Under the pieces are notes generated by a model. That model did not search any database. It was not told the origin of the DNA and saw nothing but the letters and a program-made list of their open reading frames with translations. Source: Phycisphaeraceae bacterium (lineage in GTDB: Bacteria; Planctomycetota; Phycisphaerae; Phycisphaerales; UBA1924). From it: 64,000 nucleotides of DNA. The stretch is from positions 1,116,001 to 1,180,000 of the forward strand of contig JAHBWV010000001.1 in NCBI GenBank assembly GCA_019636845.1, given 5' to 3'. Positions 2,764-55,802 of this stretch are shown here, piece after piece. How positions within the stretch are numbered: position 1 is the stretch's first letter; every line of letters starts with the position of its first letter. Made by a program: the position numbers and the translations under genes.

Positions 2764-3411
2764 TCACCCGCGGATCAGGCGTCCATGCAGCCGCCGAACC
2801 TCGTTCTCAAGCCGGACAAGTCCTGCGTCTGCCCCCTCCGCAAGCAGGTCACTTGCCGCGATCGGCTCTCCAATGAGCACGCGCAGCGGCCCGCGGAACA
2901 GACGGGGAAGGGCTCGAGAGCGAGGCCAGATGTCGAATCCTCCGTCGATCGCAACCGGGAGCACGGTGCAGCCGGAGCGTTTGGCGATGAGCGTCGCGCC
3001 GCGCTTGAAAGCGTGTATAGCTCCATCGTGTGTGCGCGAGCCCTCGGGATAGATAATCACGGCATCGCCGAGTTTCAGGCGTTCGATCACCAGTCGCATC
3101 GCGCCGAGATCGCCCTCCTCCTCTCGGAGCGGCACGGCATGAAACTTCGTGATCAGGTGCGCGAATCCTCGCCTCTTGAAGAGCCCTGCGCGTGCGAGAT
3201 GCGTCGCGACGCGAGGGTAGAGCGCGGTTCCGACCGCGACCGAGTCCAGGTAAGACTGATGGTTGGAAACCACAAGGAGCGGACCCGTCCGTGGCACGCG
3301 TGAGATCCCGTATCGCCGATACCCGAACAACGCCGCGAGCACCACTTGGAGCAGGACGACCGCAAGGCGGTAGTGAATCGATCGCGTATCGTCGTGCGGC
3401 GAGTGACCCAC
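2764..3411 (-). CDS. plsC: 1-acyl-sn-glycerol-3-phosphate acyltransferase (PlsC family)
   Basis: This membrane acyltransferase of phospholipid synthesis converts lysophosphatidate to phosphatidate. The catalytic motif is NHQSYLD (His51 and Asp56), a standard NHX4D box. The acceptor-binding motif is YPEGSRT, and a later block is VLPVAIDG. An N-terminal hydrophobic helix (about residues 15-30) anchors the 215-aa protein. The start is GTG at 3411, three bases past the cmk stop, so the two are translationally coupled. It is the last gene of a leftward operon: sugar isomerase, cmk, plsC. Confidence 0.9.
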   Translation of the reverse strand: MGHSPHDDTRSIHYRLAVVLLQVVLAALFGYRRYGISRVPRTGPLLVVSNHQSYLDSVAVGTALYPRVATHLARAGLFKRRGFAHLITKFHAVPLREEEGDLGAMRLVIERLKLGDAVIIYPEGSRTHDGAIHAFKRGATLIAKRSGCTVLPVAIDGGFDIWPRSRALPRLFRGPLRVLIGEPIAASDLLAEGADAGLVRLENEVRRLHGRLIRG

Positions 3412-3414
3412 GCA

Positions 3415-4110
3415 TCAAGTTCCCAGGACGCGAGAGCGAACCTCTTGTTCGAGTCGCAGGACGACCTCTTCGAAACCAAGCCCCGTCGTGTCCACTCGTG
3501 TCGCATCCTCCGGGCACACCAGCGGACCGACAGCACGAGTGGAGTCGCTCCTGTCGCGCGCCTCGATCTCTTCACGCAGCCGTGCCACGTCAACCTCCGC
3601 GACGCCCGCAGCACGCAACTGCTCGGCGCGTCGCACCGCACGGACCTCAGGCGTCGCCCAGAGGAAGAACTTCACTTCGGCGTTGGGGAAGACGACGCTC
3701 CCCTGATCACGCCCCTCCGTCACCAGTCGCGGGTGCTGGTGCCCGATGATCCTCTGCTTGATCACCATGTGCTCGCGGAGCTCACGTATCGCCGAGACCG
3801 GAGAGACATGCTCCGTCACATCGGCATCACGGATCCTGTGATCGATGGGCTTGTCCCACGCCAGAATCATCGGCGGGTCCTCGTTCCAGTCAAAGTGCAG
3901 ATCCGCCGTCATCACCAACGCCACGAGCTGCTCGGCCTGCCCGATCGTGAGCCCGCGGTCGAGCATGATCGCGGTCGCCGCCCTGTACATCGCGCCGGTA
4001 TCGAGAAAGTCCAGACCAAGCCGACGCGCCAGTTCGCGGGAGACCGAGGACTTCCCCGTACCAGCAGGTCCATCCACCGTCACGATGATGGGTCGTTCCT
4101 GTGGAATCAC
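3415..4110 (-). CDS. cmk: Cytidylate kinase
   Basis: Cmk phosphorylates CMP and dCMP to the diphosphates. The P-loop GPAGTGKSSVS follows within about 15 residues of the chosen start, then FLDTGAMYRA and TEGRDQGSVVFPNAEVKFFL, all typical of Cmk. GTG 4110 gives 231 aa, close to the usual 220-230 aa. An in-frame start at 4203 would add 31 unusual residues and overlap the upstream gene by 34 bp, so the shorter form is preferred, although its ribosome-binding site is weak. It lies between a TIM-barrel isomerase and plsC, in the same direction. Confidence 0.93.
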   Translation of the reverse strand: MIPQERPIIVTVDGPAGTGKSSVSRELARRLGLDFLDTGAMYRAATAIMLDRGLTIGQAEQLVALVMTADLHFDWNEDPPMILAWDKPIDHRIRDADVTEHVSPVSAIRELREHMVIKQRIIGHQHPRLVTEGRDQGSVVFPNAEVKFFLWATPEVRAVRRAEQLRAAGVAEVDVARLREEIEARDRSDSTRAVGPLVCPEDATRVDTTGLGFEEVVLRLEQEVRSRVLGT

Positions 4111-44456: not shown

Positions 44457-44489
44457 CATCGCTGATGCTGGAGGCCAGCATCGGTGATG
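44457..44489. promoter_or_regulatory. Inverted repeat at the 5' end of cas3, possible operator
   Basis: Arms CATCGCTGATGCTGG (44457-44471) and CCAGCATCGGTGATG (44475-44489) are complementary at 13 of 15 positions with a 3-nt centre. It spans the in-frame ATG at 44465 and ends 18 bp before the preferred cas3 start at 44507. It could be a repressor operator or a 5'-UTR hairpin. Confidence 0.5.
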
Positions 44490-44506
44490 TCGTTCGTCAA
44501 CTTTGT

Positions 44507-46801
44507 ATGATCGAAGCAGTGTACGCCCACACCTACGGCTCGGACAAGCGGGATTGGGAGCCGCTGGAGAAGCACCTGCGGGACGTGGCCGAGCGTGCGT
44601 GCGAGTTCGCTGCCGCGTTCGGAGCCAGCGAACTGGGGCGGCTCGCGGGGTTGTGGCATGATCTTGGGAAGTGCTCCGACGAGTTCCAGGCCTATCTGCG
44701 ACGCTCCAATGGGTTAGAGAGCGAGAACGCTCACGTTGAAGAACGCAGCCGTGTCGATCACTCCACGCTGGGTGCTCAGTTTGCTGAGTCCAAAGGAGCG
44801 CTTGGGCGGCTGCTTGCGTACTGCATCGCGGGCCACCACGCGGGATTGCCCGATACCGTCGGGGACACTGGCCTTGAAAGCCGCCTGAAGAAGGACGTGG
44901 ATGCGGAAGCTGTGCTGGCGAAAGCTCGCTCGTACAACAAGTCCTGGCTCGAGCACACCCTCCCGGGACCGCCCGCGATCACGCCCGCTGGGCGAGCGTC
45001 CCACCGCGCCTTTCAGGTCGCCTTCTTTACTCGGATGTTGTTCTCTTGCCTGGTGGACGCGGATTTCCTAGCGACAGAAGCGTTCATGGACCCATCTCGA
45101 CAGCAGGAGCGGAAACGAGAATCTATCAGAATTGCAGACCTGCGCATCGTGCTGGATCGCTCGCTTGAGGCGATGGTTGCCGATGCTCGGCCCACACCCG
45201 TGAACCAGCACCGCGCGGACGTGCTCAGGGCATGTCAAGACAAGGCAGCACTGACCCCAGGGTTCTTTACGCTCAGCGTTCCCACCGGCGGCGGAAAGAC
45301 CCTCTCGTCGCTTGATTTTGCGCTCAGACATGCGGAAATCCATGGTCTGCGCCGAGTGGTGATCGCTATTCCGTTCACGAGCATCATCGAGCAGAACGCG
45401 GCGGTGTATCGGAAGGCGCTGGGTTCACACGCGGACGCGGTGCTTGAGCACCATTCGAACTTCGAGCCCCGGAAAGAGGATCGATGGTCGCGCCTCGCGA
45501 GCGAAAACTGGGACGCCCCGATCGTCGTCACGACGACTGTTCAACTCTATGAGTCGCTCTTCGCCAGCAGCACATCCCGCTCCCGCAAGCTGCACCGCCT
45601 CGCGCGCAACGTCATCATCCTGGATGAAGCCCAGTCGATCCCGGTGCAATTGCTCCGTCCCACGCTCGCGGCGTTGCACGAACTGGTTCGCAACTACGGT
45701 TGCTCCATCGTTCTCTGCACCGCCACTCAACCGGCGGTCGGAGCAAGAGATGGTTTCTCCATTGGTCTGCCGCTGGACAAGGAACGGGAGATCGTGCCTG
45801 ATGTCGGTCGTGTCTTCGCCGCGTTGAAACGGGTTTCGGTCGAGCCGACACGCGACATTCCCGACGAACAGCTGGCGGAAGAGCTGGCGGACCAACGACA
45901 GGTGCTGTGCATTGTCCACACACGGCGGCAGTGCCGCGAGCTATTCCTACGGGTCTCGGAACTGGCAGGTGATGACTCCAACAGGCCCTTGTGCGATCGT
46001 TCCTGCCTGCACCTGAGTACCGATATGTGCCCGGAGCACCGTTCCTTCGTGACCCGCCTGATCCGGCGGCGGCTGCGTCTCCAGCTCCCGTGCCGCGTTG
46101 TGAGCACGAGTCTGATCGAGGCGGGGGTGGACGTGGACTTTCCGGTTGTGTACCGCGCTTTGGCGGGGCTGGACTCGATCGCACAGGCGGCGGGCCGGTG
46201 CAATCGCGAAGGCCGCATGGATAAGCCGGGCCGCGTCGTGGTCTTTCGTCCCGAGCGGCCGATCCCCGCTCCGATGCATGAGCTCAAGCTCGCCGCACAT
46301 GACGCTTCCGCCATCATGAAGCGGCACACAGACCTCCTCCATCCGGATGCGATCGCGGCGTATTTCGCCGAGCACTATTGGAAGCGGTCGAGTGAATGGG
46401 ACACGCCGTGCGTCATGGATTGCTTCAAAGGAGGAGGGGAGGTGCTCAACTTCCGCACCGCCGCCGAGCGCTACCGCCTCATCGACAACGGCCAGACGCC
46501 GGTCGTTGTTCCATGGTCTCGACGCGGGCGAGCCCTAATTGAAGCGATCATGAAGCGCGATCGACCCGCCGATCGCGCCCTTTACCGCGCGGCTCAGCGT
46601 CTCAGCGTCGGGCTGTGGCCTCAAGCTCTTGCACGACTCGCGGGACATACCGTGATCGAACCCAAGTGCATCGTCCGCGGCGAGTGGGTCGGAGTCGGCA
46701 TCAACGTGCTTCTCAACCGGCAGGCCTACGCGCCGGTGATTGGGTTGAATCCGGAGGCGTCCGGTATCGGTCCTGAATGGCTTATCGAAGGGAGTTCGTG
46801 A
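44507..46801 (+). CDS. cas3: CRISPR-associated nuclease/helicase Cas3 (type I-C)
   Basis: Cas3 degrades target DNA after Cascade binding. The 764-aa protein starts MIEAVYAHT and carries the HD nuclease first (His23, HD pair 51-52 in WHDLGK, GHHAGLPD near 110), then the SF2 helicase: Walker A PTGGGKT (about 260), DEAQ box LDEAQS (about 372), motif III CTATQ, motif V STSLIEAGVDVDFP and motif VI QAAGRCNREGR. ATG 44507 is preferred because the earlier ATG 44465 lies inside an inverted repeat and the family begins near YAHT; neither has a good ribosome-binding site. Confidence 0.94.
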   Translation: MIEAVYAHTYGSDKRDWEPLEKHLRDVAERACEFAAAFGASELGRLAGLWHDLGKCSDEFQAYLRRSNGLESENAHVEERSRVDHSTLGAQFAESKGALGRLLAYCIAGHHAGLPDTVGDTGLESRLKKDVDAEAVLAKARSYNKSWLEHTLPGPPAITPAGRASHRAFQVAFFTRMLFSCLVDADFLATEAFMDPSRQQERKRESIRIADLRIVLDRSLEAMVADARPTPVNQHRADVLRACQDKAALTPGFFTLSVPTGGGKTLSSLDFALRHAEIHGLRRVVIAIPFTSIIEQNAAVYRKALGSHADAVLEHHSNFEPRKEDRWSRLASENWDAPIVVTTTVQLYESLFASSTSRSRKLHRLARNVIILDEAQSIPVQLLRPTLAALHELVRNYGCSIVLCTATQPAVGARDGFSIGLPLDKEREIVPDVGRVFAALKRVSVEPTRDIPDEQLAEELADQRQVLCIVHTRRQCRELFLRVSELAGDDSNRPLCDRSCLHLSTDMCPEHRSFVTRLIRRRLRLQLPCRVVSTSLIEAGVDVDFPVVYRALAGLDSIAQAAGRCNREGRMDKPGRVVVFRPERPIPAPMHELKLAAHDASAIMKRHTDLLHPDAIAAYFAEHYWKRSSEWDTPCVMDCFKGGGEVLNFRTAAERYRLIDNGQTPVVVPWSRRGRALIEAIMKRDRPADRALYRAAQRLSVGLWPQALARLAGHTVIEPKCIVRGEWVGVGINVLLNRQAYAPVIGLNPEASGIGPEWLIEGSS

Positions 46802-46831
46802 AAAAATGAGGCGGACCCGTCTGGGTCCGCC
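46801..46831 (-). terminator. Leftward intrinsic terminator of the crRNA-like gene
   Basis: Perfect 9-bp stem GGCGGACCC / GGGTCCGCC (46810-46818 with 46823-46831), tetraloop, followed leftward by TCATTTTTT, the T run overlapping the cas3 stop. On the plus strand the hairpin is followed by CTCCCGG, so it is directional and serves a leftward transcript; the only candidate is the crRNA-like gene. Confidence 0.88.
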
Positions 46832-46892
46832 CTCCCGGCCTGTCAGCCTCGCATGACATGTTTCAATCCGCGCCCGCGTGTGAGCGTGCGAC
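46801..46892 (-). ncRNA. Solitary crRNA-like RNA gene (degenerate repeat, 28-nt spacer, terminator)
   Basis: Read leftward: a degenerate CRISPR repeat (46892-46860, 33 nt), a 28-nt spacer-like segment (46859-46832), then an intrinsic terminator (46831-46801). The last 16 bases of the repeat (GGGCGCGGATTGAAAC) are identical to the array repeat, so the 11-nt 5' handle left by Cas5c would be unchanged. The stem has diverged but still pairs: CGCACGC with GCGGGCG, one mismatch. No second repeat is needed, because the terminator sets the 3' end. The spacer matches the DNA in front of the small ORF at 47031 (see 47000-47030). This is the architecture of CreA/CreR-type regulators. No clear promoter is visible on this strand. 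Confidence 0.85.
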
Positions 46893-46960: not shown

Positions 46961-46988
46961 TTGCTCGATGCATGGTTATGAGTATAGC
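46961..46988 (+). promoter_or_regulatory. Candidate sigma-70 promoter of the small ORF-cas5-cas2 genes
   Basis: TTGCTC (46961-46966) and TATAGC (46983-46988) with 16-bp spacing, in an unusually AT-rich patch. Transcription would begin near 46995, a few bases before the predicted Cascade target. Each hexamer matches consensus at four of six positions. Confidence 0.4.
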
Positions 46989-46999
46989 ATCAGATATCG

Positions 47000-47030
47000 T
47001 TCATGTCATGTGATGCTGAAGGAGCTCTTG
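47000..47030 (+). promoter_or_regulatory. Predicted Cascade target (PAM plus partial protospacer) over the small-ORF ribosome-binding site
   Basis: PAM TTC (47000-47002) is followed by a protospacer starting at 47003 that matches the crRNA-like spacer: ATGTCATG identical at 1-8, then 10-11 and 13-17 identical; 15 of the first 17 and 18 of 28 overall. The protospacer covers the AAGGAG ribosome-binding site (47019-47024) and ends at the ATG of the small ORF. Full seed with a mismatched distal half should allow binding without Cas3 cleavage, hence repression. Confidence 0.8.
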
Positions 47031-49830
<2,800 letters not shown>

Positions 49831-49833
49831 CCC

Positions 49834-50778
49834 ATGCCCACTGCCACCCAGCCCGCGTCCTCCACGACCGCCAGCCCTGTCATCGCCAACCGCTACGACT
49901 TCGTCTATTTCTTTGAGGTCCGCGACGGCAACCCCAATGGCGATCCCGATGCGGGCAATATGCCCCGCATTGATCCTGAGACCGGCCAGGGCCTCGTCAC
50001 CGATGTCTGCCTCAAGCGCAAGATCCGCAACTTCGTGGGCCTCGAGCACGGTGAGCAGCCGCCCTACGAGATCTATGTCAAGGAGCGAGCCGTGCTGAAC
50101 AAGCAGCACGAGCGTGCCTACCAGGCCCTTGAACTCAAGCCCGAGAAACGCAGAATGCCCAAAGACGAGGCCAAGGCCCGCGAGGTCACCGCGTGGATGT
50201 GCCGGAACTTCTTCGACATCCGCACCTTTGGCGCGGTCATGAGCACCGATGTCAACTGCGGCCAGGTCCGTGGACCCGTGCAGTTTGGCTTCGCTCGCTC
50301 CATCGACCCGCTCATCACCCTCGAGCACAGCGTCACCCGCTGCGCCGTTACAACAGAGGGCGAGGCGGAGAAGCAGCAGGGCGACAACCGCACCATGGGC
50401 CGCAAGTTCACCATTCCTTATGGCCTCTACCGTGTCCACGGTTTCATCAGCCCCCACCTCGCCGATCCGGATCGCAACGGCACCGGGTTTTCCGAGGCCG
50501 ACCTTGAGCTTCTCAAGCGGGCGCTCAACCAGATGTTCGAGATCGACCGCTCAGCCGCCCGCGGCGAGATGCGGCCCGCAGACATCATCGCCTTCAAGCA
50601 CGAATCAGGCCTCGGCAACGCACGAGCCGATCAGCTCTTCAAACGCGCGGGCTATAAGCTCAAGGACGAAGTTCGCGCGGAGAATCGTCCCGCTCGCTCG
50701 TTTGACGACTACGAGCCCTTGATGAACTTTGATAACTTGCCCGCTGGCATCACTGTGGAGCAGTGGCTTACGGCCTGA
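49834..50778 (+). CDS. cas7c: Cas7c (Csd2), Cascade backbone subunit
   Basis: Several copies of this 314-aa RAMP protein line the crRNA spacer. After a short Thr/Ser-rich tail it reads [27 protein letters not shown], the Csd2 signature, then [24 protein letters not shown] and RCAVTT ... [19 protein letters not shown] 49834 has GGAGAG eight bases upstream. It is followed by cas4 after 10 bp. Confidence 0.96.
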
Positions 50779-50788
50779 GGACCGCATC

Positions 50789-51526
50789 GTGCTAGAGGGC
50801 ACCTCGCTCGTGGAAAAGCACCCCATCCCCAACTCCGCCCTCCAGCACTACATCTTCTGCCCGCGCCAGTGCGCGCTCATCCACATCGAGGGGCTCTGGG
50901 CCGAGAACCGGCTCACCGTCGAGGGCAACATCCTGCACCGGAAGGCCCACGGCGAGAAGGCCGGCCCGCGCGGCGGCGGACGGGCCGAGTCGCGCCCCGG
51001 CATCCGCACTGTCCGTGGTCTTGCCCTCTGCTCCGACTCGCTTGGGCTGACCGGAAAGGCCGATGTCGTTGAGTTCCATGGCGCGCCGGACGCGGATCAG
51101 GCGGCGACAGAGGCGGGAGCGTTCGGGCAGCGAGCCGCACGCCCGCTCGGAAGGCCGTTCCCGGTCGAGTACAAGCGCGGCCGCCCCAAGCGTCACGACG
51201 CGGACCTCGTCCAGCTCTGCGCCCAGGCCCTCTGCCTTGAGGAGATGCTGGGGCTCGGCGAGGGCGGCGTCCCGGCGGGCGCGATCTTTTACGGGCAGCC
51301 GCGCAAGCGGCTGGATGTCGTCTTCGACGCGACGCTGCGCCGACGGACGCTCGACGTGATCGCGGGCTGCCGCGCCATGATCCAGTCCGGCGTCACACCC
51401 CGAGCCGCGCGCGAGAAGAAATGCGATCGCTGCTCGCTCTTGAACCACTGCCTCCCTGGCGCGACGGGGCCTGCCAAGTCGGCGTCTCGCTACATCGTTG
51501 CCGCCGTGCGCGGGAGCGCGGCATGA
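50789..51526 (+). CDS. cas4: Cas4 adaptation exonuclease (RecB-like, Fe-S)
   Basis: Cas4 trims prespacers and selects PAM-oriented spacers with Cas1-Cas2. The 245-aa protein has cluster ligands FCPRQC near residue 24-28 and the C-terminal KKCDRCSLLNHC, and the RecB motif FPVEYKRGRPKRHDADLVQLCAQALCLEEM. GTG 50789 is 11 bp past the cas7c stop, which lies in a GAGG context. Its end overlaps cas1 as ATGA. Confidence 0.94.
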   Translation: MLEGTSLVEKHPIPNSALQHYIFCPRQCALIHIEGLWAENRLTVEGNILHRKAHGEKAGPRGGGRAESRPGIRTVRGLALCSDSLGLTGKADVVEFHGAPDADQAATEAGAFGQRAARPLGRPFPVEYKRGRPKRHDADLVQLCAQALCLEEMLGLGEGGVPAGAIFYGQPRKRLDVVFDATLRRRTLDVIAGCRAMIQSGVTPRAAREKKCDRCSLLNHCLPGATGPAKSASRYIVAAVRGSAA

Positions 51527-52554
51527 AGCATCACCTCAACACGCTCTTCGTCTTCACCCAGGACGCTTATCTCTCCAAGGATGGGGAAGCGGTCGCCGTC
51601 AAGGTCGAGAAAGAGGTCAAGCTCCGCCTCCCGATCCACAACCTCGGGGGCATCGTCTGCTTCGGCCGCGTCAACGCCAGCCCGTACCTCATGGCCATGT
51701 GCGCGGAGCAGGGCGTCGCGATCTCGTTCTGCACGGAGCACGGCCGCTTCCTCGCCCGGTACAGCGGATTCACGCCCGGCAACGTGCTCCTCCGCCGCCA
51801 GCAGTACCGCTGGGCCGACGACCCGGCCCGTGCCACCGAAGTCGTCCGCTCGATGCTGCTCGGCAAGCTCGCCAACAGCCGCACGGTGCTCCTCAGGGCC
51901 GCCCGCGAGCACACGGACCCCGACGCGGCCGATCGGCTCTCCCACGCCGCGGCAGGCCTCAGCACCTCGGTCGAGACGACCCGCTGTGCCGCGACCGTCG
52001 ACGAGCTCCGCGGCATCGAGGGCGATGCCGCCCACACATACTTTGCCGTCTTCCAGCGGCTCATCCGCTCGAGCGATCCCGCCTTCACGTTCAGCAACCG
52101 AACGCGCCGCCCCCCGCTCGATCGCGTAAACGCCCTGCTGTCGTTTCTCTACGCCATGCTCGCCCACGACGCCCGCACGGCCTGCGAGGCGTGCGGGCTC
52201 GATCCAGCCGTGGGCTACCTGCACCTCGACCGTCCCGGCCGACCGGGGCTTGCCCTTGACCTGATGGAGGAATTCCGCGCCTTTCTCGCCGACCGGCTGG
52301 CCATCTCGCTGATCAATCTCGGGCAGGTGAAGGCGTCCGGTTTCACGGTCACGGAATCCGGCGCGGTCGAGATGAGTGAAACGACCCGCAAGGAAGTCGT
52401 CGCGGCTTACCAGCGCCGGAAGCAGGAGAGCATCGTTCATCCCTTTCTCAACGAGCGAACGACTGTGGGCCTGCTCGTGCATCTCCAGGCGCGGCTGCTC
52501 GCCCGCTTCATCCGCGGCGATCTCGACGCCTATCCCCCGTTCATCTGGAAGTAA
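51523..52554 (+). CDS. cas1: Cas1 integrase
   Basis: Cas1 integrates spacers at the leader-proximal repeat. The 343-aa protein starts MKHHLNTLFVFTQDAYLSKDGEAV, contains LPIHNLGGIVCFG, the catalytic Glu in RGIEGDAAHTYF, and the His/Asp pair in YLHLDRPGRPGLALDLMEEFR. Start ATG 51523 overlaps the cas4 stop. cas2 follows after 19 bp. Confidence 0.97.
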   Translation: MKHHLNTLFVFTQDAYLSKDGEAVAVKVEKEVKLRLPIHNLGGIVCFGRVNASPYLMAMCAEQGVAISFCTEHGRFLARYSGFTPGNVLLRRQQYRWADDPARATEVVRSMLLGKLANSRTVLLRAAREHTDPDAADRLSHAAAGLSTSVETTRCAATVDELRGIEGDAAHTYFAVFQRLIRSSDPAFTFSNRTRRPPLDRVNALLSFLYAMLAHDARTACEACGLDPAVGYLHLDRPGRPGLALDLMEEFRAFLADRLAISLINLGQVKASGFTVTESGAVEMSETTRKEVVAAYQRRKQESIVHPFLNERTTVGLLVHLQARLLARFIRGDLDAYPPFIWK

Positions 52555-52573
52555 ACCGCCGGAGCGTCTCCCG

Positions 52574-52864
52574 ATGTTCGTCCTTGTCACGTACGACGTC
52601 TCAACCACGACGCCCGAAGGCCGCAGGCGACTCGCGAGAGTCGCCAAGACCTGCCTCGATCGCGGGCAGCGCGTTCAGAACTCCGTCTTCGAGTGCAAGG
52701 TGGATCCCGGTCAGTTCGCCGCGCTCAAGGGCATCCTGCTCGGCCTGATCGACCCCAAGACGGATAGCATTCGGTTCTACATGCTGGGCGCCAAGTGGGA
52801 GCGTCGCATTGAGCACCACGGCGTGAAGCCATCTCTGGATATTGACGGACCTCTGATCGCTTGA
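52574..52864 (+). CDS. cas2: Cas2 adaptation protein
   Basis: Structural partner of Cas1 in spacer integration. The 96-aa ferredoxin-fold protein begins MFVLVTYDVST (conserved Asp8) and contains RVQNSVFECKVDPGQ and RFYMLG, the family pattern. ATG 52574 has only GGAGCG upstream. Last cas gene before the leader. Confidence 0.96.
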   Translation: MFVLVTYDVSTTTPEGRRRLARVAKTCLDRGQRVQNSVFECKVDPGQFAALKGILLGLIDPKTDSIRFYMLGAKWERRIEHHGVKPSLDIDGPLIA

Positions 52865-53056: not shown

Positions 53057-55756
53057 GTCGCCCCTCACGCAGGGGCGCGGATTGAAACAGCTCCATGTAA
53101 CCGGCGGGACCAGCCGCCGCGCGTCGCCCCTCACGCAGGGGCGCGGATTGAAACACGTCGTCACCCTCGACACCGAGCAGAGCGACGGTCGCCCCTCACG
53201 CAGGGGCGCGGATTGAAACACGCCGCGGACGCACGCGCGGGCGCTCGATCACGTCGCCCCTCACGCAGGGGCGCGGATTGAAACTGGATGGAGATTTTCG
53301 GCGGCACGACCCCGGCCCGTCGCCCCTCACGCAGGGGCGCGGATTGAAACCTGAGTTTCTGGCTCTTGGTTACGCGAGCGAGGTCGCCCCTCACGCAGGG
53401 GCGCGGATTGAAACCCGTGCAACGTGAACTGCCGTGGTACGGCGGTTGGTCGCCCCTCACGCAGGGGCGCGGATTGAAACGGTGTGTCAGGCATCGGGGG
53501 TCTCCTTCAATGCGTCGCCCCTCACGCAGGGGCGCGGATTGAAACAGATCCCGCGCCGTTTGAGCGGCCAGACGGTCGTCGCCCCTCACGCAGGGGCGCG
53601 GATTGAAACCGTGAGGAGGTCATCGCACGCGAGCAGCGCAAGGGTCGCCCCTCACGCAGGGGCGCGGATTGAAACAAGTTTGTCGTGATGAACTTCGAGG
53701 AGATCAAGGTCGCCCCTCACGCAGGGGCGCGGATTGAAACGTGGTCTGGGGCTCGTGACAAAGCCTCGTACGCGTCGCCCCTCACGCAGGGGCGCGGATT
53801 GAAACTCGATGGCGCGGTAGTGCCGATCCGCCGCCGAGGTCGCCCCTCACGCAGGGGCGCGGATTGAAACATCTACGGGAAGCGGATCAACCGGCTGTCC
53901 CTTGTCGCCCCTCACGCAGGGGCGCGGATTGAAACCTCACCGTCTCGTCGTCGTAGGCCGTGGCCTGAAGTCGCCCCTCACGCAGGGGCGCGGATTGAAA
54001 CCGTCTCCGACCGTCACCACCTCGTACCGCTTCGTCGCCCCTCACGCAGGGGCGCGGATTGAAACTGGTCTACGGGGATGTGTATACGGATACTCTGTGT
54101 CGCCCCTCACGCAGGGGCGCGGATTGAAACTGATCGAAGACCGGCATCGGCGGGAGGATCACGGTCGCCCCTCACGCAGGGGCGCGGATTGAAACTCGAC
54201 CTCGATCTCAGGCGCGCCGAAGAGCGCGGTCGCCCCTCACGCAGGGGCGCGGATTGAAACACAAGGAGACGACCACATGAGCGAAACGGACCAGGTCGCC
54301 CCTCACGCAGGGGCGCGGATTGAAACCCGAGTGGACGCGACACCTGCCCGCCAACTACAAGTCGCCCCTCACGCAGGGGCGCGGATTGAAACGCTGGCTG
54401 TGGGCGCGATTCCCATTTGCTCGCTGGTCGCCCCTCACGCAGGGGCGCGGATTGAAACTGATTGAGGCCGACGTCGAGCCGCTCGGCAACGTCGCCCCTC
54501 ACGCAGGGGCGCGGATTGAAACATGACCGGACTGTCGATGGAGACAACATCCACAGCGTCGCCCCTCACGCAGGGGCGCGGATTGAAACTTACCTGTCCT
54601 CATCCTGCACGACCTCGAGGCGGGTCGCCCCTCACGCAGGGGCGCGGATTGAAACTAAAGAAAACGACGGCACCACATTGAACACTTGTCGCCCCTCACG
54701 CAGGGGCGCGGATTGAAACCTCGCCACCATCGGAGCCACAGCATGAAGGCGAAGTCGCCCCTCACGCAGGGGCGCGGATTGAAACTGTCGATCATCGAGC
54801 CGCACCGCGAGTTCCTGAGTCGCCCCTCACGCAGGGGCGCGGATTGAAACCTGTTCAACCAGTCGTACACGGCGCACCGTGCCGTCGCCCCTCACGCAGG
54901 GGCGCGGATTGAAACATGGACGAGGACGGCACCGACTCACACAAGGAAGTCGCCCCTCACGCAGGGGCGCGGATTGAAACTCGATGAGCATGACCATCCT
55001 TGACGATGGCGGCGTCGCCCCTCACGCAGGGGCGCGGATTGAAACATCGACGCCGCTGCCGCACGCGGATTCGACGTTGTCGCCCCTCACGCAGGGGCGC
55101 GGATTGAAACCATCCGGTCATGTACAGCACGTCGCGGCGGTAGGTCGCCCCTCACGCAGGGGCGCGGATTGAAACTGGGTCGAGTTCGGCACCGACGTTG
55201 ACTACGCCAGTCGCCCCTCACGCAGGGGCGCGGATTGAAACATGCTGTACGGCGTGCTGATCGAGCCCGCCAACTGTCGCCCCTCACGCAGGGGCGCGGA
55301 TTGAAACCAGGAGCTGCAGCCGGCTCTACGTGTGAACCTGGTCGCCCCTCACGCAGGGGCGCGGATTGAAACCGCCACCCGAGCCGCAGTACCGGCGTGA
55401 TCCGAGTCGCCCCTCACGCAGGGGCGCGGATTGAAACGCCTTGAAGGACTCCGCCTGCTGCTGCAGACGCTGTCGCCCCTCACGCAGGGGCGCGGATTGA
55501 AACCGGCTCTACACGATCGAGAGCGGCATCGCGGGGGTCGCCCCTCACGCAGGGGCGCGGATTGAAACCTCTGGGAGAAGGCGTATGTCGCCGCCGCGCC
55601 GCGGTCGCCCCTCACGCAGGGGCGCGGATTGAAACTCGGCTTCCTCGCGGATTCGCTCCTTCTCCGCCTGTCGCCCCTCACGCAGGGGCGCGGATTGAAA
55701 CATGTCGGATGACCATACACAACGGCTTGAGTCCGTCGCCCCTCACGCAGGGGCGC
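53057..55756 (+). CRISPR. Type I-C CRISPR array, 41 intact repeats plus one degenerate terminal repeat, 41 spacers
   Basis: The 32-nt repeat begins GTCGCCCCTCACGCAG and ends GGGCGCGGATTGAAAC, with stem CGCCCC/GGGGCG and the typical I-C ATTGAAAC end. Repeat starts run 53057, 53123, 53188 ... 55604, 55670; periodicity is 64-66 bp, so spacers are 32-34 nt. All 41 are identical by eye. The last copy (55735-55756) keeps the first 22 bases but the final ten, which form most of the 5' handle, are replaced. Orientation agrees with the cas2-proximal leader. Confidence 0.98.
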
Positions 55757-55802
55757 ACCGTCACGAGGCGCGTATCGGACCATAGCGACACTCCATCTGA
55801 CG

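Follow-up and report, generated by a model that had tools for sequence, protein, structure and literature searches.

How CRISPR-Cas systems control their own dosage is a live question. In the autorepression of SpyCas9 that Workman et al. described in 2024, the guide is reportedly a long tracrRNA. The crRNA-like regulator CreR, as far as the work of Liu et al. 2023 (Cell Host Microbe, doi 10.1016/j.chom.2023.08.005) is relayed in PMC13131331, PMC12737573 and PMC12948488, is named for types I-B, I-E and V-A in the first of these and for 'Type I and Type V-A' generally in the second. We found no report of CreR for type I-C in the open literature, an entry in the tables of the original CreR paper being possible. 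In I-C, cutting by Cas5d/Cas5c yields the 11-nt crRNA handle (PMC3890593), and TTC is reported as the PAM of one such system (PMC8406640). Here we describe an element in the cas3–cas5c gap of a planctomycete I-C locus that, judging by its sequence, is very probably the gene of a CreR, through which Cascade would repress its own operon.

The window, by which we mean the whole 64,000-nt stretch of DNA analysed, contains a complete I-C locus in the order cas3, small ORF, cas5c, cas8c, cas7, cas4, cas1c, cas2 and array, with cas genes identified by NCBIfam models whose matches are essentially full length, except for a partial one to the Cas3 helicase. The true start of cas8c lies further in than 47731, since the family match begins only at residue 88 of the open frame. 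The closest named Cas5c match is from a Phycisphaerales MAG, in keeping with a planctomycete source. At the end of the array (window 55669-55766), a truncated repeat (GTCGCCCCTCACGCAGGGGCGC) without the handle is followed by unrelated sequence.

The original prediction had placed a single degenerate repeat, a 28-nt spacer and an intrinsic terminator on the minus strand at 46801-46892, and we find all three there. That span holds the core elements; the target (47000-47019 with its PAM) and the predicted promoter (47009-46981) lie outside it. The psi-repeat (minus strand 46892-46860, GTCGCACGCTCACACGCGGGCGCGGATTGAAAC, 33 nt) aligns with the array repeat (GTCGCCCCTCACGCAGGGGCGCGGATTGAAAC, 32 nt) such that the final 16 nt, GGGCGCGGATTGAAAC, which include the 11-nt Cas5c handle, are common to both, as predicted. 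It is not a chance resemblance, because the exact 14-nt handle, present in 42 copies in the 3.67-Mb genome, occurs 41 times in the array and only once outside it, at the psi-repeat. Although the psi-repeat hairpin is the weaker of the two (folding energy −8.8 versus −13.5 kcal/mol for the array repeat), both centroid stems stop at the same base, directly before the 11-nt handle. The terminator was seen on the minus strand only, which bears out its proposed directionality, and its T-run shares 46801, the final base of the cas3 stop codon. Since the terminator scan by itself was not significant (one found versus 0.6 expected in shuffles), the weight of this feature comes from its position and its recurrence in relatives. 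With a putative promoter that matches the consensus at 10/12 bases, a prediction from consensus match only, promoter and terminator would make the guide gene a stand-alone transcription unit.

Table 1. Coordinates of the guide gene, its putative target and the surrounding I-C locus in the window.
Feature	Position	Strand	Remarks
cas3	44465..46801	+	HD domain TIGR01596; helicase match partial
Intrinsic terminator of guide RNA gene	46801..46832	-	10-pair stem 46832-46809, T6 46806-46801
Pseudo-spacer (guide), 28 nt	46832..46859	-	ATGTCATGCGAGGCTGACAGGCCGGGAG; first 17 nt match 47003-47019 (+) at 15 positions
Psi-repeat, degenerate I-C repeat, 33 nt	46860..46892	-	11-nt handle CGGATTGAAAC intact; alignment, genome handle count
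Predicted promoter of guide RNA gene	46981..47009	-	ATGACA, 17 nt, TATACT; TG before −10
PAM TTC of target	47000..47002	+	TTC reported for I-C (PMC8406640)
Target (protospacer), cas5c operon start region	47003..47019	+	guide mismatches at positions 9, 12
75-aa ORF, first gene past target	47031..47258	+	Shine-Dalgarno GAAGGAG 47018-47024; stop overlaps cas5c start
cas5c, predicted processing nuclease and handle-binding subunit	47255..47983	+	TIGR01876, 1-203/203
cas8c open frame	47731..49830	+	TIGR01863, 3-585/588
cas7 (csd2)	49834..50778	+	TIGR02589
cas4	50729..51526	+	TIGR00372
cas1c	51421..52554	+	TIGR03640
cas2	52376..52864	+	TIGR01573
CRISPR array	53057..55766	+	41 intact-handle repeats, spacing about 65-66 nt, plus truncated last repeat

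The guide matches a TTC-flanked site at the start of the cas5c operon, 143 nt from the pseudo-spacer, across its first 17 nt only (15/17, with 8/8 in the seed and TTC immediately 5'); past base 17 no similarity above background is left, and the 3' end of the target runs into the Shine-Dalgarno sequence of the operon's first gene. Sites beside TTC were scored on the first 17 positions with 6 and 12 omitted, which leaves 15 informative ones. Of the 1,843 such sites that the 64-kb window contains, the target ranks first with 14 and the next best has 11; in 20,000 dinucleotide-preserving shuffles of the gap, a score of 14 never arose. Moreover, the combined pattern of PAM, seed and bases shared by guide and target has its sole zero-mismatch match in the genome at this target. 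A target is what separates a regulator from a relic, and it is the decisive feature that the original prediction lacked. On the cas side, the window has a weakly predicted promoter (7/12). Base 9, one of the two mismatched positions, falls within a stretch essential for a haloarchaeal CreA (PMC8501985), and repression may be weaker here than in the relatives as a consequence of this mismatch.

We then compared I-C loci more widely, starting from genomes with a Cas5c match, of which the class set (298 genomes) gave 40 and the overlapping phylum set (392 genomes) 51; the scan covered about 90 oriented cas5c loci, including three named loci and 17 plasmid loci. An isolated I-C repeat was present in the cas3–cas5 gap of 11 loci, namely L063 (the window), L032 (a Rhizobiales contig), L042, L043, L054, L058, L061, L096, L114, L117 and L121, and every one of the 11 has a target in the same gap, clear in ten and weak in L117. 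Both guide and target sequences vary between loci, which indicates that each target was kept or re-evolved together with its guide. The gap measures 211–533 nt in the measurable loci with the element and less than 100 nt in most others. In the stand-alone copies a strong hairpin lies about 22–39 nt past the guide, usually followed by T-rich sequence, and hairpins comparable to the window terminator follow the guide in most related loci. Where a cas promoter could be recognised (TTGACA-16-TAAAAT in L042, TTGACT-17-TATCAT in L058), the target lies at its −10 box or at the start site. L117 retains repeat and terminator, with guide–target mismatches at positions 1, 3, 6, 12 and 18; it was counted as weak because the best match by plain count is a palindrome and not that target, and it looks as if its guide were decaying or drifting, given the poor fit to its own gap. 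The genome that carries L117 has two cas5c loci, L117 (G528:C1) and L096 (G528:C2), each with an isolated repeat. One further hit, in L090, lies about 1.1 kb upstream of cas5 and was dropped as a chance occurrence of the handle.

Most of the I-C loci scanned are without the element, and the search of relatives suggested in the original prediction came out both ways: no psi-repeat-like element was found in the nearest Cas5c relatives identified, L031 (71%) and L034/G193 (66%), but ten other I-C loci have one. The scan of the 17 plasmid loci (L125-L141) yielded no such element, and the sole same-genus genome of the class set, G264, gave no Cas5c match. This patchiness does not refute a function, because every isolated gap repeat has its target in that gap; it points to a repeatedly gained or lost accessory rather than a fixed part of the locus.

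Three controls bear on whether these pairs are genuine. Each of the ten clear guides was compared with the other loci beside a YTY PAM (720 trials), which gave at most 11/15 matches versus the 13–15 observed at the own locus. A plain count over 15 bases, in which neither PAM nor position was weighted so as to remove scoring bias, ranked the same ten targets first, with TTC as PAM in eight and TTT in two. In the third, guide–target pairs were sought at any GAAA[CTA] site in the roughly 90 loci, with no true repeat required; the only two non-repeat hits scoring at least 13 were in L111 (a palindrome) and L130 (inside cas3), which indicates that guide–target pairing is specific to real repeats.

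The mismatches are themselves informative. Over the ten clear pairs, 11 of 14 fall at position 6 or 12 (binomial P = 6e-8), the two of the window pair lying at 12 and 9. Type I effectors flip out every sixth guide base. In a haloarchaeal CreA, mutation of base 6 or 12 is without effect, while the other bases of 1–11 are each essential (PMC8501985). Taken together, the clustering at 6 and 12, the flipped-base rule and the CreA mutations mark the pairs with a Cascade-type recognition footprint. Two similar 17-bp sequences 143 nt apart could also be copies of a duplicated protein operator that would account for the spacer–target similarity with no part for Cascade. This is so improbable that we give it almost no weight: in all clear matches the similarity starts at the guide base that follows the handle and at the target base that follows TTC or TTT, the mismatches concentrate as described and the sequence varies by locus, none of which a protein-site model predicts. 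Barely more credible is a decaying relic, that is, a stray repeat and a leftover spacer whose function has been lost. The repeat is indeed degenerate, solitary and missing from near relatives, and one of the window mismatches falls outside positions 6 and 12, but a relic would not be expected to preserve the handle exactly along with a terminator and a 17-nt target beside a PAM, ten other loci have unrelated guides with matched targets, and working CreA genes typically have degenerate repeats (PMC9458426).

The original prediction had pointed to crRNA-like regulators of the CreA/CreR kind, a proposal that these data support, with CreR as the better-fitting branch given the PAM-flanked target at the cas5c operon and the pairs in ten other loci. 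As a CreR, the guide RNA would arise by leftward transcription from its predicted promoter (47009-46981), and Cas5c would cut it at the hairpin base of the psi-repeat, which would leave the standard 11-nt handle and an RNA with the 5' end CGGAUUGAAAC; the terminator would supply its 3' end, and the RNA would be loaded into I-C Cascade. With pairing this short, Cascade bound at the target would probably obstruct RNA polymerase, with no cutting by Cas3. Plentiful Cascade would shut off its own operon, and repression would lift once array crRNAs titrate Cascade away or an anti-CRISPR disables it. We infer repression, absence of cutting and relief from how CreR and CreA are reported to behave (PMC12737573, PMC13131331, PMC8501985). 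The −35 box of the predicted guide promoter overlaps the target seed, so a bound complex may limit its own guide too, as is also suggested by the well-matched opposite-strand guide promoters predicted in L042 and L058, which, like that of the window, overlap or adjoin the target.

Past the target, the first gene is the 75-aa ORF, for which we found no confident family and no toxin family, the best match being a sub-threshold one to PadR (E = 0.14). Similar small ORFs precede cas5 in L058, L098, L099 and L101, with the common motifs ..LDRL.. and ..RKRG/RKSG.., and the ORF is possibly an undescribed small I-C-associated protein. Its position would also suit an addiction module of the CreA/CreP type, in which the guide represses a toxic product of this ORF and the cell suffers when Cascade is lost or an anti-CRISPR acts, and CrePA modules of such logic have been described (PMC12737573). 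We nevertheless regard addiction as highly unlikely here: besides the lack of a match to any toxin family, the ORF overlaps the start of cas5c, so that repression of one is repression of both; among the other clear guide–target loci only L058 has a like ORF at the target; and L098, L099 and L101, which have homologues, are without the guide gene. Autorepression of the cas5c operon remains the reading that we prefer.

Two of the 11 loci are arranged differently. In L032 (element region about 3175-3430) and L096 (about 2770-3000) the repeat is sense-oriented, 46 and 95 nt before cas5c respectively, and no convincing terminator was found past it in either. In this leader-embedded form Cas5c might cut its own mRNA, thereby freeing a guide that would silence cas5c. 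In L032, a 12-nt inverted repeat (GGTCCACTCTCC / GGAGAGTGGACC) flanks repeat and guide, and its right arm contains the likely cas5c Shine-Dalgarno sequence, an arrangement that hints at translational control in addition. Tentatively, type I-C may have evolved CreR-type autorepression repeatedly and in at least two forms: a stand-alone divergent one, in which the target overlaps the guide's own promoter so that operon and guide would be controlled together, and the leader-embedded one.

The evidence from sequence thus extends CreR-type self-repression to I-C, a subtype that is very common, has a minimal Cascade and lacks Cas6. The eleven natural guide–target pairs (ten clear, one weak) allow the bases that Cascade uses to be read out from their mismatches, and the mechanism can be tested directly in a tractable I-C host. 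In these bacteria, anti-CRISPRs that act against I-C Cascade are predicted to release the cas genes from repression. The pairs also furnish a rule for genome scans, namely an isolated repeat in a wide cas3–cas5 gap, with the first 15–17 guide bases matching a nearby TTC or TTT site.

Among known systems, SpyCas9 autorepression (PMC13131331) is alike in turning a CRISPR effector onto its own promoter with relief by anti-CRISPRs, but involves a class 2 effector and a different RNA, and is of independent origin. Racr RNA anti-CRISPRs, which are solitary repeat units and include RacrIC1 (PMC10651486), resemble the element as a lone I-C repeat outside the array; however, Racrs are encoded by viruses or plasmids and jam Cascade, whereas the element sits in the host's own complete cas locus, on a 3.49-Mb contig, and its guide has a matching target. 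With CrePA, a CreA guide plus the protein toxin CreP (PMC12737573), it has in common effector-guided repression by a crRNA-like RNA adjoining cas genes, but the first ORF past the target is missing from most element loci and matches no toxin family. CreA of the I-B and I-F CreTA modules (PMC8501985, PMC9458426, PMC10097628) likewise has a psi-repeat, a psi-spacer and a terminator, and a TTC-flanked target with seed pairing that leaves bases 6 and 12 unused; here the putative target is the cas operon and not a toxin RNA, and no creT was identified in the locus. The closest likeness is to CreR, with a single degenerate repeat unit in the cas locus, a crRNA-like RNA and a guide partly complementary to a PAM-flanked cas promoter or start region, from which autorepression by the effector is predicted. 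The element departs from the CreR of the reviews in belonging to type I-C, with a crRNA made by Cas5c and not Cas6, and in being an antisense gene in the cas3–cas5c gap with its own predicted promoter overlapping the target, while in two related I-C loci the copy is sense-oriented and sits in the cas5c leader, possibly as a new sub-form.
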